Below are positions 4,559 through 28,796 of a stretch of DNA of 34,660 bases, piece by piece. The DNA is from Longimicrobium sp. (GTDB taxonomy: Bacteria; Gemmatimonadota; Gemmatimonadetes; Longimicrobiales; Longimicrobiaceae): positions 1-34,660 of the forward strand of contig NZ_DATBNB010000691.1 of NCBI RefSeq assembly GCF_036554565.1, written 5' to 3'. Every line of letters starts with the position of its first letter. Positions within the stretch are counted from its first letter, which is position 1. A program made the position numbers and the translations under genes. The notes under the pieces are model-generated. The model saw only the letters and a list, made by a program, of their open reading frames with translations, was not told the DNA's origin and ran no database searches.

Positions 4559-6028
4559 ATGACGGATACGGCGACGCTGGACATCCAGCCGGGACGGCTG
4601 TTCATCGGGGGCGAGTGGCAGGACGCCGCCTCGGGCAGCACCTTCGACACCATCAACCCCGCCACCGCCGAGCCGCTGACGCAGGTGGCCGAGGCGGGCG
4701 CCGAGGACGTGGACCGTGCCGTCCGCGCCGCGCGCGAAGCGTTCGAGAGCGACGCGTGGCAGAACCTGGACGCCCGCAAGCGCGGCAAGCTGCTGTACGC
4801 CATCGCCGACCGGCTGGAAGAGCGCGCCGACGAGCTGGCCGCGCTGGAGACGATGGACAACGGCAAGCCCGTGCGCGAGGCGCGGGTGATCGACATCAAG
4901 GAGTCGATCGACTGCTTCCGCTACTACGCGGGCTGGGCCGACAAGATCGCCGGCGACGTGATCCCCGTTCCCGGGCCGTACCTGAACTACACGCGCCGCG
5001 AGCCGGTGGGGGTGTGCGGGGCCATCATCCCGTGGAACTACCCGCTGCAGATGGCCGCGTGGAAGGTGGCGCCCGCCATCGCCTGCGGGAACACCGTCGT
5101 CCTGAAGCCGGCCGAGCAGACGCCGCTGACCGCGCTGGAGCTGGCGCGCGCCGCCTCGGACGCCGGGCTCCCCGCCGGTGTGCTGAACGTGATCCCCGGC
5201 TTCGGCGAGAGCGCCGGGGGGGCGCTGGTGAACCACCCCGACGTCGACAAGATCGCCTTCACGGGGTCCACCGCCATCGGCAAGCTGATCCAGCGGCAGG
5301 CCGCGGATACGCTCAAGAAGGTGTCGCTGGAGCTGGGCGGAAAGAGCCCCAACATCGTGCTCGACGACGCCGACATCGAGGCGGCGGTGCGCGGCGCCAG
5401 CATGGCCATCTTCTACAACAGCGGCCAGGCCTGCACCGCGGGCTCACGCCTGCTGGTGCACGAGAAGATCCGCGACGAATTCGTGGAAAAGCTGCTGAAG
5501 CGGGCGGCCGGCTTCGTTCCGGGCGACCCCATGAACCCCAAGACGCGCCTGGGGCCGCTGGTGTCGGAGGAGCAGATCGAGCGCGTGCTGGGGTACATCG
5601 AAAAGGGCAAGCAGGAGGGCGCGGAGCTGCTGCTGGGCGGCGACCGCGTGGAGGTGGGGGGCAAGCGCGGCTACTTCCTGAACCCCACCGTCTTCGGCAG
5701 CGTCACGCCGCGGATGACCATCGCCTGCGAGGAGATCTTCGGCCCCGTGCTGGCGGTGCAGACGTTCAGCGACATGGACGAGGCCATCCAGATCGGCAAC
5801 GCGTCGGAGTACGGGCTGGCCGCCGCCGTGTGGACGAGGGACGTGAGGAAGGCGCACCACGTCGCCCACAAGCTGCGCGCGGGGACGGTGTGGATCAACA
5901 CGTACCACAACCTCGACACGGCCTCGCCCTTCGGCGGCTACAAGCAGTCCGGCTACGGCCGCGAGTTGGGCCGCTACGCGCTGGACCTGTACACCCAGGT
6001 GAAGAGCGTCTGGGTGAACCTGGCGTGA
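4559..6028 (+). CDS. NAD(P)-dependent aldehyde dehydrogenase
   Basis: This 489-residue cytoplasmic enzyme is of normal family length and oxidises an aldehyde to its acid. The ALDH signature is complete: Asn160 in PWNYP, Lys183 in LKPAEQTP, FTGSTAIG (234-241), the general base Glu258 in LELGG, and the nucleophile Cys292 in NSGQACTAGSR. EEIFGPV lies near 390 and SPFGGYKQSG near the C-terminus. The start at the ATG at 4559 agrees with the N-terminus of relatives. It lies downstream of a terminator and a repeat-filled gap, so it probably has its own promoter, which I could not place. The substrate is unknown; phenylacetaldehyde, betaine aldehyde or fatty aldehydes are all possible. There is no MaoC domain, so it is not a PaaZ-type fusion. 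Confidence 0.95.
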   Translation: MTDTATLDIQPGRLFIGGEWQDAASGSTFDTINPATAEPLTQVAEAGAEDVDRAVRAAREAFESDAWQNLDARKRGKLLYAIADRLEERADELAALETMDNGKPVREARVIDIKESIDCFRYYAGWADKIAGDVIPVPGPYLNYTRREPVGVCGAIIPWNYPLQMAAWKVAPAIACGNTVVLKPAEQTPLTALELARAASDAGLPAGVLNVIPGFGESAGGALVNHPDVDKIAFTGSTAIGKLIQRQAADTLKKVSLELGGKSPNIVLDDADIEAAVRGASMAIFYNSGQACTAGSRLLVHEKIRDEFVEKLLKRAAGFVPGDPMNPKTRLGPLVSEEQIERVLGYIEKGKQEGAELLLGGDRVEVGGKRGYFLNPTVFGSVTPRMTIACEEIFGPVLAVQTFSDMDEAIQIGNASEYGLAAAVWTRDVRKAHHVAHKLRAGTVWINTYHNLDTASPFGGYKQSGYGRELGRYALDLYTQVKSVWVNLA

Positions 6029-6033
6029 AACCC

Positions 6034-6059
6034 AGTGCGTGAGTGCGTCAGTGCGTGAG
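6034..6059. repeat. GTGCGTGA-type short tandem repeat, left arm of inverted repeat
   Basis: Three near-identical 8-9-bp units (AGTGCGTGA, GTGCGTCA, GTGCGTGAG). Bases 6043-6059 are a perfect 17-bp inverted match to 6432-6448 on the other side of the HicB-like gene. Confidence 0.75.
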
Positions 6060-6112
6060 CGCGGAGGGCCCTCTCACGCACCGGCCTCTCGTTCTCGAAT
6101 GGAGCGCTTCAC

Positions 6113-6412
6113 ATGCCGATGAAACCGGTGTTCGAGAAGACGCCCACGGGATACGTCGCCTGGGTGGATGGACTGCCGGGGGCGCTCACGCAGGGTGACT
6201 CGCTGGAGGAAGCACGCGAGAACCTGGCGGATGCGGTTTTGCTCGTCCTGGAAACGCGGCGGATGATCAAGGCTATCGATGCCGGAGGGCTCTGGCCTCC
6301 AGCACGGATGCCTGATCCGCTGCCTGACCAGTTCGACCCCGCGGATGATCATGGATGGATCCGGCAGCCGTTCATCCTGCGGCTCGATCACTTCCGGGCC
6401 CTCGATGGCTGA
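6113..6412 (+). CDS. HicB-like small protein without a HicA partner
   Basis: This 99-residue protein has the HicB/UPF0150 fold signature in its first ~45 residues: [20 protein letters not shown], followed by [15 protein letters not shown]. Family members are antitoxins of HicAB toxin-antitoxin modules or stand-alone regulators. No hicA-like gene (about 60-80 codons) fits in the 84 nt upstream or the 61 nt downstream. The C-terminal half is Pro- and Asp-rich and shows no ribbon-helix-helix or HTH DNA-binding domain. A TGGAG sequence lies upstream of the ATG. The gene sits between aldehyde dehydrogenase and thiolase and is flanked by inverted repeats, as if inserted as a cassette. Confidence 0.75.
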
Positions 6413-6431
6413 TGCACGCGGAAGGCACCGA

Positions 6432-6466
6432 CTCACGCACTGACGCACTTCCGCACTCACGCACTT
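6432..6466. repeat. CTCACGCAC-type short tandem repeat, right arm of inverted repeat
   Basis: Four units of the complementary motif lie just before the thiolase ATG. Bases 6432-6448 are the exact reverse complement of 6043-6059. The repeat ends 7 bases before the start codon at 6474, so copy-number change here would alter thiolase translation. Confidence 0.75.
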
Positions 6467-6473
6467 CTTCTCC

Positions 6474-7675
<1,202 letters not shown>

Positions 7676-7679
<4 letters not shown>

Positions 7680-8464
7680 GCGACACCATCCGGCTGTCCA
7701 TCGGGGACGGTGTCGCCTGGATCACGCTCAACCGCCCCGACCGGCTGAACGCCTTCGCCGGGCGGATGCGCGACGACCTTCACGACGCCATCGACCGCGC
7801 GGCGACGTCGCCCGAGGTGCGGGTGATCGTCATCACCGGCGCGGGCCGCGGCTTCTGCACCGGCGCCGACGTGGAGGTGATGAGCGACCTGCTTGCGCGC
7901 GGCGACGACGAGACCTTTGAGGGACTGGTGGAGGCGGGGATGCGCGTGGTCCGGCGCCTCGCCAGCGTGGAGCAGCCGGTGATCGCGGCGGTGAACGGGC
8001 CCGCGGCGGGCGCGGGCGCGTCGCTGGCGCTGGCGTGCGACTTCCGCATCGCCTCGGAGCGCGCGACCATCGGCTTTACGTTCAATCGCATCGGCCTGCA
8101 CCCGGACTGGGGGGCCACCCACTCCCTGCCCCGCCTGGTGGGCCCGGGGCGCGCGGCGGAGCTGGTGATGACGGGGCGGATGGTGGATGCGCGCGAGGCC
8201 GAGCGCATCGGCCTCTTTCAGCAGGTATTCGCCGACGACTGGTTCATGGACGAGGTGCGCAAGCTGGCGAAGGAGCTCGCCGCCAAGCCGCCGCTCGCCC
8301 TCACGCTGGCCAAGCGCACCCTGGCCGCGTCGCCCACGTCGGACCTGGACGCCATGCTCGCCGCCGAGCGCGAGCAGCAGATGCGCTGTTTCCGCAGCGC
8401 GGACGCGAAGGAAGGCATCACCGCGTTCAACGAGAAGCGGAAGCCCGTGTTCCGGGGGGAGTGA
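7676..8464 (+). CDS. Crotonase-family enzyme, PaaG-like isomerase type
   Basis: The 262-residue protein starts at a GTG overlapping the thiolase stop. It has the crotonase fold with the oxyanion-hole motif GFCTGADV (59-66), but neither hydratase glutamate: the GGGxE position reads AGASLA and the QPEI position reads FNRI. Instead it carries Asp144 in HPDWGAT, the position of the catalytic Asp in the E. coli PaaG motif PDAGGT. This argues for an isomerase rather than a hydratase: either 1,2-epoxyphenylacetyl-CoA/oxepin-CoA isomerisation or delta3-delta2-enoyl-CoA isomerisation. The role is inferred from residues and context. It is probably the last gene of the 4559-8464 gene run, being followed by repeats. 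Confidence 0.88.
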
Positions 8465-9227: not shown

Positions 9228-10388
9228 TTAGAGGAATTCCGACGCCGCGTTCGGCTGCCCCTCTGCAAATCGCGACGGGCGCAGGGGATGCACGTCCATC
9301 GACGACGACGCTCCGTCCAGGATGATCTCGGACAGCAGCTGACCCAGCGCGGGCGAATGCATCACCCCGTGCCCCGACGACCCGTTCGCCAGGAACAGGT
9401 TCTCAACCCCTGGCGCCGCGCCCAGCAGCACGTGCCGGTCCGGCGACATCTCGTACAGCCCCGCCACGCACCGCTCGCGGTCGATCCTGGCGTCGCGCAG
9501 GCACGGCACCCAGCGGTGCGCGCGGGCAACCACCTGCGGCAGCCAGTCGGGATCCAGGGTGGTGTCGAACGGGTCGCTCGTGTTCGGCTGGTCCGACCAG
9601 AGCAGCAGCACCCGCCCATCGCGGACGCGCAGGTGGAACTCCGCTTCCAGGAAGGCGGTGAGCGGCATGCACTCGGGAAGCCCGTCGAACGGCTCGGTGA
9701 AGGCGACCTGGCGCCGGAGCGGCCAGACGGGAATCTCCACTCCAGCCATCACGGCGACAGCGCCCGCCCACGCGCCTGCGGCGTTCACCACCACCCCCGC
9801 GGCCACCTCGCCCCGGTTCGTGCGGACGGCGGCGATCTTTCCATCGTCCAAGCGAAATCCCTGGACCGCCGTGCCGTACTCGAAGCGCACACCCAACCGC
9901 CGCGCGGCGTCTGCGTAGCCGGCCAGCATCTGGAGCGGCCGGATGAAGCCGTCGGTCGGGCAGTGCACCCCGCCGACGAGGCCGTCCACCGAGATCGCCG
10001 GGTTCACCTCGCGCGCCTCGTCCACCGACACCCGCCGCGGCTCGGTGGCTCCCAGCGCATGCTGCATCGCCTGCGCCTCCAGCAGCGCCGCCAGCGTCTC
10101 CTCGCGCTCCGCCAGGAACAGGTAGCCGCACGGACGGTAGCCGGGGTCCGCGCCCACCTCGTCTGCAAAGCGAAGCATCTTGTCGCGCGAGAGCAGAGAT
10201 AGGCGCACGTTGGGCTCCGACCCGAACTGCACGCGGAAGCCACCCGTCGCCCGCCCCGTGCTCCCCGCCCCGGCCTCCGCGCCCGCGTCCAGCACCAGCA
10301 CGCGCGTGCAGCCGCGCGCCGCCAGGTGCCAGGCCACGCTGGCCCCGATCACCCCTCCGCCCACGATCACCACGTCGTAACTCTCCAC
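9228..10388 (-). CDS. FAD-dependent amine/amino-acid oxidoreductase (DAO family)
   Basis: The 386-residue protein belongs to the D-amino-acid/sarcosine/glycine oxidase family. The N-terminal dinucleotide-binding motif VGGGVIG (9-15) is followed by the ADP-ribose-contacting acidic end of beta2 (LVLDAG). The typical DAO C-terminal motif GSSGHGVMHSPALG is present. The start is the GTG at 10388, which has a strong GGGGAGGAG Shine-Dalgarno 3-5 nt upstream. It probably oxidises a C-N bond of a small amine or amino acid with FAD in the cytoplasm. It is divergent from the 3-hydroxyacyl-CoA dehydrogenase, with about 190 bp between them. The substrate cannot be inferred, and a link to acyl-CoA catabolism is not obvious. 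Confidence 0.9.
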   Translation of the reverse strand: MESYDVVIVGGGVIGASVAWHLAARGCTRVLVLDAGAEAGAGSTGRATGGFRVQFGSEPNVRLSLLSRDKMLRFADEVGADPGYRPCGYLFLAEREETLAALLEAQAMQHALGATEPRRVSVDEAREVNPAISVDGLVGGVHCPTDGFIRPLQMLAGYADAARRLGVRFEYGTAVQGFRLDDGKIAAVRTNRGEVAAGVVVNAAGAWAGAVAVMAGVEIPVWPLRRQVAFTEPFDGLPECMPLTAFLEAEFHLRVRDGRVLLLWSDQPNTSDPFDTTLDPDWLPQVVARAHRWVPCLRDARIDRERCVAGLYEMSPDRHVLLGAAPGVENLFLANGSSGHGVMHSPALGQLLSEIILDGASSSMDVHPLRPSRFAEGQPNAASEFL

Positions 10389-10577
10389 CGGCTCCTCCCC
10401 GGAACGAGCGACCCAGCCGCGAGTGGATGAATTGTGAGCCCGTGCGCCGCGCGTGGAAAGAGGCGGCGGTGGCGAGCCGCCCCGCCCGCGCATACTTTGC
10501 CGCCGGATGCACATCCGCGGGCGAGCTGCCGTCCGCACCACGACCAGAGGGCGAACCCAGTGGCGGACGACCAGACG

Positions 10578-27557: not shown

Positions 27558-28796
27558 TCATCCCGGGGGGACTCGCCCCAGCACCGCCCCGATGCGCTCG
27601 GCCGCCTGCGCCAGGCGCGACTCGGGCTCGATCAGGGCGAAACGCACGTGGCCCTCGCCCTCGGGCCCGAAGCCCAGCCCCGGCGACACCACCACGCCGG
27701 CCTCGCGCAGCAGCAGGCGGGCGAACTCGATGGAGCCCATCTCCCGGAACGCGTTTGGGATGGGCGACCACACGAACATGGTGGCCGCGGGCACGGGAAC
27801 CGGCCAGCCGGCGGCGTTCAGCCCGGCCACCAGGGCATCGGCGCGGCGCCGGTACACCTCGCGCGTTTCCGCCACGCACTCCTGCCCGGCGCGCAGGGCG
27901 TGCGCGGCGGCGATCTGGATGGGCTCGAAGATCCCGTAGTCCAGGTAGCTCTTGATCCGCGTCAGCGCCCCCACCATGGCCGGGTTGCCCACGCAGAACC
28001 CCACCCGCCAGCCCGCCATGCAGTACGACTTGGACATGGAAAAGAACTCCACGCCGATCTCCCGCGCCCCCGGGACGGCGAGCAGGCTGGGCGGCTCGGC
28101 GCCGAAGCCGAAGTCGGCGTAGGCAAAGTCGTGCACCAGCAGCAGGCGGTTGCGGCGGCACACCTCCACCGCCTTCTCGAAGAACCCGGGCGGCGCCTGC
28201 AGCGTGGTTGGATTGTTGGGGAACGACAGCACCAGCAGCTTCGGCGCGGGTGATACGGTGCGGCAGGCCTCCTCCACGCCGGCCAGCAGGGCGTCGCCAT
28301 CCACGAACCCGTCCGCCCCGGCCACCAGCGGCAGCCCGTGCACGCGCCCGCCGGCGAACAGCACCGAGTAGCGGTGGATGGGGTACGCCGGCGAGGGAAC
28401 GATCACCGTGTCGCCGTCGCCCAGCAGGGCCAGCATCAGGTGGGCAATCCCCTCCTTGGCGCCGATGGTGACCACCACCTCCGTCTCCGGATCCACCGTC
28501 ACGCCGTACCGCCGGGCGTAGTGCTCGGCCATCCCCTCGCGCAGGCCGTAGATGCCGCGCGATGCGCTGTAGCGGTGGTGCTTGGGCTTGCGCGCGTGCT
28601 CCACCAGCTCGTCGACGATGTGCCCGGGGGTGCCCAGGTCGGGGTTGCCCATCCCCAGGTCGATGACGTCCTCGCCCGCGGCGATGCGTTCCATCTTTTC
28701 GGCGTTGATCGCCGCGAACACGTACGCGGGAAGGCTGCCGATGCGGGGAAAGTCGGCGCTGGAGGTCGGGGGCCAGGGCGAGGGCTGCGCGGTCAT
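27558..28796 (-). CDS. alaC: PLP aminotransferase, AlaC-like (glutamate-pyruvate transaminase)
   Basis: The 412-residue protein is a class I/II fold-type I aminotransferase. It follows E. coli AlaC nearly segment by segment: IDLGMGNPDLGTPGHIV, YSASRGIYGLR, VTIGAKEGIAHLMLALL, VHDFAYAD, EFFSMSKSYCMAGWRVGF and VSPGLGFG. The PLP-binding Lys256 lies in SMSKSY; Asn194, Asp223, Tyr226 and Arg264 are the other expected cofactor contacts. The likely reaction is alanine + 2-oxoglutarate to pyruvate + glutamate, in the cytoplasm. The start at the ATG at 28796 agrees with the family N-terminus; an upstream ATG at 28835 is possible. It is a single gene between the rpmA terminator and the giant lipoprotein promoter. 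LL-diaminopimelate aminotransferase is the main alternative. Confidence 0.9.
   Translation of the reverse strand: MTAQPSPWPPTSSADFPRIGSLPAYVFAAINAEKMERIAAGEDVIDLGMGNPDLGTPGHIVDELVEHARKPKHHRYSASRGIYGLREGMAEHYARRYGVTVDPETEVVVTIGAKEGIAHLMLALLGDGDTVIVPSPAYPIHRYSVLFAGGRVHGLPLVAGADGFVDGDALLAGVEEACRTVSPAPKLLVLSFPNNPTTLQAPPGFFEKAVEVCRRNRLLLVHDFAYADFGFGAEPPSLLAVPGAREIGVEFFSMSKSYCMAGWRVGFCVGNPAMVGALTRIKSYLDYGIFEPIQIAAAHALRAGQECVAETREVYRRRADALVAGLNAAGWPVPVPAATMFVWSPIPNAFREMGSIEFARLLLREAGVVVSPGLGFGPEGEGHVRFALIEPESRLAQAAERIGAVLGRVPPG

Follow-up and report, generated by a model that had tools for sequence, protein, structure and literature searches.

The window is the whole 34,660-nucleotide stretch of DNA analysed here, contig C691 of a Longimicrobium sp. 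genome (the own genome, G000). Between an aldehyde dehydrogenase gene and a thiolase gene it holds two short tandem arrays that bracket a HicB-like open reading frame (ORF). The features are as follows.

4559–6028, + strand: aldehyde dehydrogenase gene, left edge of the gap (name from the first-pass annotation; position conserved in relatives)
6034–6065, + strand: left array, AGTGCGTG AGTGCGTC AGTGCGTG and a partial fourth unit AGCGCGGA
6113–6412, + strand: HicB-like orphan antitoxin ORF of 99 aa, at the same position as hicB of a complete hicBA pair in the related genome G007; no hicA follows
6431–6465, − strand: right array, reading on the − strand AGTGCGTG AGTGCGGA AGTGCGTC AGTGCGTG and a partial unit
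6474–7679, + strand: thiolase (PF00108, PF02803), right edge of the gap
7676–8464, + strand: enoyl-CoA hydratase/isomerase (PF00378), the next operon gene after thiolase

Read directly in the sequence, positions 6043–6059 and 6432–6448 are exact reverse complements over 17 bp. The longer arms around this core agree at 92% (6034–6059/6432–6457) and 87% (6034–6063/6436–6465). Tandem Repeats Finder, run on the window, returned period-8 arrays at 6034–6063 and 6431–6465, both built of AGTGCGNN-type octads, and the perfect 17-bp inverted repeat inside longer tandem units described by the first-pass annotation is thus confirmed. With up to two mismatches, AGTGCGTNAGTGCG has eight matches in the window against 1.26 expected (at least eight in 0 of 100 shuffles), and seven of the eight fall in the two arrays. 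The left array starts 5 nt 3′ of the aldehyde dehydrogenase stop codon and reads outward from that gene; the right array starts 8 nt 5′ of the thiolase ATG (6474) and reads outward from thiolase. The right repeat had been placed 7 bases before this ATG; its outermost complete unit ends at 6465, 8 nt before it, and the 17-bp core ends 25 nt before it.

The ORF between the arrays resembles HicB weakly, scoring below the Pfam cut-offs (PF15919, 19.8 bits versus 27; PF21748, 19.2 versus 27.3), and its coding score is low. At the same junction in G007, HicB reaches 28.0 bits in PF21748 (cut-off 27.3), and a complete HicA overlaps the end of hicB (PF07927, 38.3 bits, 37.1 in a second search, versus a cut-off of 27). 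HicA was not found in the window; the matches in the own genome lie on contigs C741, C2 and C646. NCBIfam gave no match for the HicB or HicA proteins. Matches to the window HicB adjoin thiolase in G007, G009 and G002, and hicA is absent behind hicB in G000, G009 and G002, so that G007 keeps hicB and hicA and the other three keep hicB only. The junction is like a HicBA module in its HicB-like antitoxin and, in G007, its complete HicA; the window differs in lacking hicA and in the extra stretch that its HicB carries before the C terminus. The earlier call of a HicB-family gene with no HicA partner therefore stands, with the profile scores below cut-off. Since no hicA lies beside it, the window gene is an orphan rather than a HicBA module, most plausibly a remnant antitoxin or a repurposed one. 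A FastTree tree of three operon proteins joins G009, G000 and G007 with support 1.0 and places G002 with G008, which has no hicB; this grouping allows both one old gain followed by losses and two gains.

The repeat extends far beyond this gap. We defined the border repeat by the core AGTGC in a unit of 7 or 8 bp (heptads, AGTGCNN, or octads). The 17-mer GTGCGTNAGTGCGTNAG, about two units long, has 140 exact matches in the own genome, tandem units being counted repeatedly. Among 61 related genomes, an octad 22-mer occurs in 12, namely all ten of the genus and two others of the family (2 and 4 copies), and the heptad AGTGCNN occurs in 11, the same ten and G018; a backward control of the heptad search gave no matches in the 61 genomes except 11 in G009. 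Phylum-wide, 14 of 395 genomes hold the octad form, and eight of these are all the genus members drawn. Genomes with a 25-mer of the left array include Longimicrobium sp. YPbin7, a Gemmatimonadetes metagenome-assembled genome (MAG) and also one Acidobacteria MAG, which makes Longimicrobium or a close neighbour the probable genus. Two other genera of the family have arrays of different units, each confined to one of the 61 genomes: GGCTCNC in G012 and GAATTNC in G016 (91 matches). Literature searches for an AGTGC repeat in this bacterial group, including searches by the letters of the unit, returned no relevant report. The first-pass annotation had named a common intergenic repeat as one finding that would speak against its reading, and the genome-wide search and the relatives reveal essentially that, a genus-wide repeat at gene borders.

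We then compared the orthologous junction, using one genome per species. In each of the ten genus genomes aldehyde dehydrogenase and thiolase are neighbours, separated by 91–503 nt. In four of the five family outgroups with adjacent genes the gap is 0–13 nt; in the fifth, G012, it is 226 nt and contains facing GGCTCGC heptad arrays (G012:C251, ~28460–28680, L075). Eleven genomes of other families have gaps of 8–129 nt. Facing arrays without hicB occupy the junction in five of the ten genus genomes (G001, G003, G004, G005 and G006), with units of the AGTGCCC, AGTGCCT or AGTGCTA type. Arrays and hicB occur together in two (G000 and G009, the right arm of the latter being irregular), hicB without arrays in two (G007 and G002), and neither in G008, which has another hairpin instead. 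The gap grows from 0–13 nt to about 91–100 nt exactly where the array pair appears. The ten junctions thus keep the same architecture with different units, and they indicate that arrays and hicB were gained and lost independently.

These patterns bear on the proposal, made from the window alone, that hicB and its flanking inverted repeats came in together as a single cassette, mobile or prone to recombination. Inverted repeats on both sides of hicB and the 0–13-nt gap in four of five outgroups would fit such an insertion. Repeats and cargo do not travel together, however: each is found independently of the other at the same junction, the own genome has one copy of hicB but repeats throughout, and no transposase or recombinase ORF was seen in the gap. 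The junction comparison (hicB only in G007 and G002, arrays only in five genomes) contradicts the mobile cassette, to which we give almost no credence. What survives of the insertion idea is that a toxin–antitoxin gene was added to a gap of high turnover, one that measures 0–13 nt in four of the five family outgroups with adjacent genes; the inserted unit does not end in the inverted repeats. The other counter-case named for the cassette, presence of the gene at this place in all relatives without the repeats, did not occur among the ten genus genomes.

A second site behaves similarly in its turnover. The gap upstream of ruvX has arrays in G000, G003, G005, G006 and G007, degenerate arrays in G001 and G002, and none in G004, G008 and G009. 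In family outgroups this gap measures −4 to 70 nt, except in G016, where it is 206 nt and holds facing GAATTAC heptad arrays (G016:C28, ~8010–8215, L209). A second interspersed element of ~200 nt, GTCATCCTGAG...GAAGGATCTA...GGATGAC, lies between facing AGTGC arrays in G005 (G005:C14:59335–59673) and in the ruvX gaps of G005 and G006 (L204, L200). A passenger between the arms is therefore not special to hicB.

To describe where arrays sit, we scored two sets of sequence from genus members and outgroups, 1,733,303 bases in all (45 and 38 arrays with flanking genes). Three or more AGTGC cores at a spacing of 7 or 8 bp counted as an array, and genes came from a simple home-made finder, without annotation. 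All 84 arrays are intergenic, with overlaps of at most 9 nt into the end of a gene in a few cases; one had no flanking gene pair and was left out of the edge count. Beginning a few bases beyond a start or stop codon, arrays run outward from the gene: in 51 of 83 (27/45 and 24/38) a gene edge is no more than 15 nt from the 5′ side of the unit, and in one of 83 it is that close to the 3′ side. Random placement in the same gaps gave means of 4.3 (maximum 11) for the 45-array set and 5.4 (maximum 13) for the 38-array set; the contigs scored were partly picked for holding arrays, and these tests count arrays rather than independent events. Thirty-two of the 83 start more than 15 nt from any gene edge. 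Among the 51 edge-flush arrays, 33 adjoin a stop codon and 18 a start codon.

The same polarity emerges with no motif preset. In the own genome AGTGCG shows the strongest polarity away from gene edges of all hexamers (43 to 3), and the same, an overlapping or a related hexamer tops most other genus members, less clearly in G003 and G006. In G012 the top hexamer is GGCTCG (16 to 1). Many arrays are unpaired. Where arrays neighbour each other within one gap, 22 pairs face, one is back-to-back and two run in the same direction. When two neighbouring genes each have an outward array, the arrays face and look like one inverted repeat, and facing arrays are accordingly to be read with caution as ends of a mobile cassette. 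Arrays occur in 42 of 549 tandem, 10 of 121 convergent and 3 of 131 divergent gaps. A reading-frame constraint was considered as the cause of the polarity and rejected by reasoning as not general, because the unit GGGAATC, a known gene-border heptamer, has no stop in any frame.

Two further observations concern individual gaps. At G000:C327:25854–25893 (L102:13855–13894) an array overlaps a predicted gene end, whose TGA stop codon it seems to provide. A third interspersed repeat of the own genome, TGTGTGGCGGATCCCTCAGTCGCTGC...GGGATGACA, shares gaps with arrays (L103 ~9680–9900, L106 ~10330–10420, L107 ~6280–6370).

The excess of facing pairs (22 versus 1 back-to-back), the step in gap size from 0–13 to about 91–100 nt with the array pair, and the Y1-type (RAYT-like) transposases in nine of the ten genus genomes would all suit short palindromic elements, MITE- or REP-like and non-autonomous, that land in intergenic gaps and have the facing arrays as their terminal inverted repeats. 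The arms themselves argue otherwise. Across 22 pairs, the arms of one gap have a unit similarity of 0.188, compared with 0.219 after shuffling within genomes; the window pair was left out because hicB lies between its arms. Variants that the arms do not share speak against terminal repeats of one element and equally against palindrome correction, and arms as mutual copies, by either route, were rejected on this comparison. An octad arm can moreover face a heptad arm (G008:C3:15942–16305), many arrays are single, and G012 has arrays of its own unit and no Y1 match. Of 30 Y1_Tnp matches found, 19 loci were examined; none of the 19 has an array within 420 nt, while other inverted 12-mers flank 18. 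Mobilisation of AGTGC arrays by RAYT was rejected as far as these loci go, and we regard the insertion of palindromic elements as unlikely overall.

The Y1-type transposase loci (L225–L243; for example G000:C184:3070–3411), present in nine of the ten genus genomes, mostly have on their flanks another inverted repeat that often includes CAGTCCGCGAAGGCGGACT or GTTGTTGCCGCG. Together with this different repeat they look like the genus's own REP/RAYT system.

A neutral origin deserves more weight, and we consider it possible, if still doubtful. Arrays would arise by replication slippage from border sequence and be tolerated only outside genes, with no function. That all arrays are intergenic, that unit and presence turn over fast and that arrays are depleted in promoter-bearing divergent gaps agree with this. 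Slippage alone does not explain why arrays start at the gene edge and read outward at both start and stop codons, nor why unrelated units behave alike elsewhere (PMC4692102).

The arrays might instead be binding sites of a translational or post-transcriptional regulator, as proposed for the TAACTGA repeats of Beggiatoaceae. These are intergenic heptamer arrays near start codons, in genes with no obvious Shine–Dalgarno sequence (PMC4679880). Ours are likewise intergenic short-unit arrays close to start codons, and a Shine–Dalgarno-like 4-mer precedes 0 of 16 genes whose start codon abuts an array versus 358 of 795 other genes (gaps of at least 40 nt), a zero that is partly forced because the array occupies the position of the ribosome-binding site. 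The stop-codon side is the commoner one here (33 of 51 edge-flush arrays), whereas the Beggiatoaceae repeats mostly share one orientation, forward towards the start codon, do not as a rule form facing pairs and have a unit that predicts no particular RNA structure (PMC4679880). Binding of such a regulator seems improbable to us.

RNA folding points to a different role. Three array-only gaps fold into predicted hairpins of −47.9, −57.7 and −66.6 kcal/mol (z −7.5, −9.6 and −5.7 versus shuffles). In the window gap the outer arms are predicted to pair around hicB (z −5.2 for the whole stretch), so that the hairpin would enclose a coding gene. In a transcript across such a gap the arms may thus pair into a long intercistronic hairpin, and this hairpin could act as punctuation between cistrons in the mRNA: it might shield the 3′ end upstream, offer a site for double-strand-specific cleavage or damp read-through. 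The arms of one gap share no variants beyond the core, so the pairing is not fine-tuned, and arrays also occur in convergent and divergent gaps, where no intercistronic transcript would span them. We infer that punctuation of mRNA between cistrons is the likeliest role of the arrays, with at best an even chance against no function.

Taken together, two unrelated things probably share the window gap: outward, genus-wide border arrays, which may form a punctuating hairpin, and a leftover HicBA antitoxin as passenger. The inverted repeats are two arrays of the border repeat that face because each reads away from its own gene. A HicBA module would have entered the gap in the ancestor of G009, G000 and G007 or earlier. 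Because the presence and absence of hicB and of the arrays are independent, hicB is more plausibly a passenger in the loop between the arms than cargo moved by them.

Several known systems invite comparison. Cyanobacterial STRR heptamers, which serve as a fingerprinting tool, are lineage-specific short tandem repeats in intergenic DNA, and the AGTGC arrays are of this general kind with another unit in another lineage. REP/REPIN sequences with RAYT transposases are interspersed extragenic palindromes of high copy number. The AGTGC repeats are also interspersed, extragenic and high-copy, in a genus with Y1 transposases, but it is a different inverted repeat, not AGTGC arrays, that flanks those transposases.

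The closest likeness is to the GGGAATC heptamers of Xanthomonas and the GGGGA(C/T)T heptamers of Nostoc. These are intergenic and have an ORF close by on the 5′ side of the unit; behind a stop codon the unit reads on the coding strand, ahead of a start codon on the non-coding one (PMC4692102). Pairs in facing, inverted arrangement number 70 in Xcc and 75 in Xac and are few in Nostoc, and the heptamers are few between divergent genes (PMC4692102). The AGTGC arrays match them in being intergenic (84/84), in their tandem 7-bp units (the window arrays being octads) and in lying near an ORF on the 5′ side (51/83, versus 1/83 on the 3′ side). The same source reports that the Xanthomonas and Nostoc units form G-quadruplexes and discusses the outward rule in those terms (PMC4692102), whereas in the AGTGC units of the window and in the common units stretches of three or more G do not recur. 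As the outward rule holds for units without G-runs that are swapped between sister species, quadruplexes cannot be its general cause, and what places arrays at gene edges becomes a testable question.

More speculatively, and with considerable reserve, a process independent of the repeat sequence may write outward 7–8-bp arrays at gene borders in unrelated bacteria (Longimicrobium-like Gemmatimonadota, Xanthomonas and Nostoc), the unit being settled per genus or species and exchangeable at one site without loss of the facing architecture. If so, the mechanism, in DNA synthesis or in selection on RNA, would respond to the border of coding or translated DNA and not to a sequence. Measured against the Xanthomonas and Nostoc heptamers, the arrays described here are a non-quadruplex variant of a known gene-border repeat, with fast turnover of the unit and an orphan antitoxin in one gap. 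What is new is a unit without G-runs, the mixing of 7- and 8-bp periods, the swap of units between species at one site, and the use of other units, GGCTCGC and GAATTAC, in sister genera.
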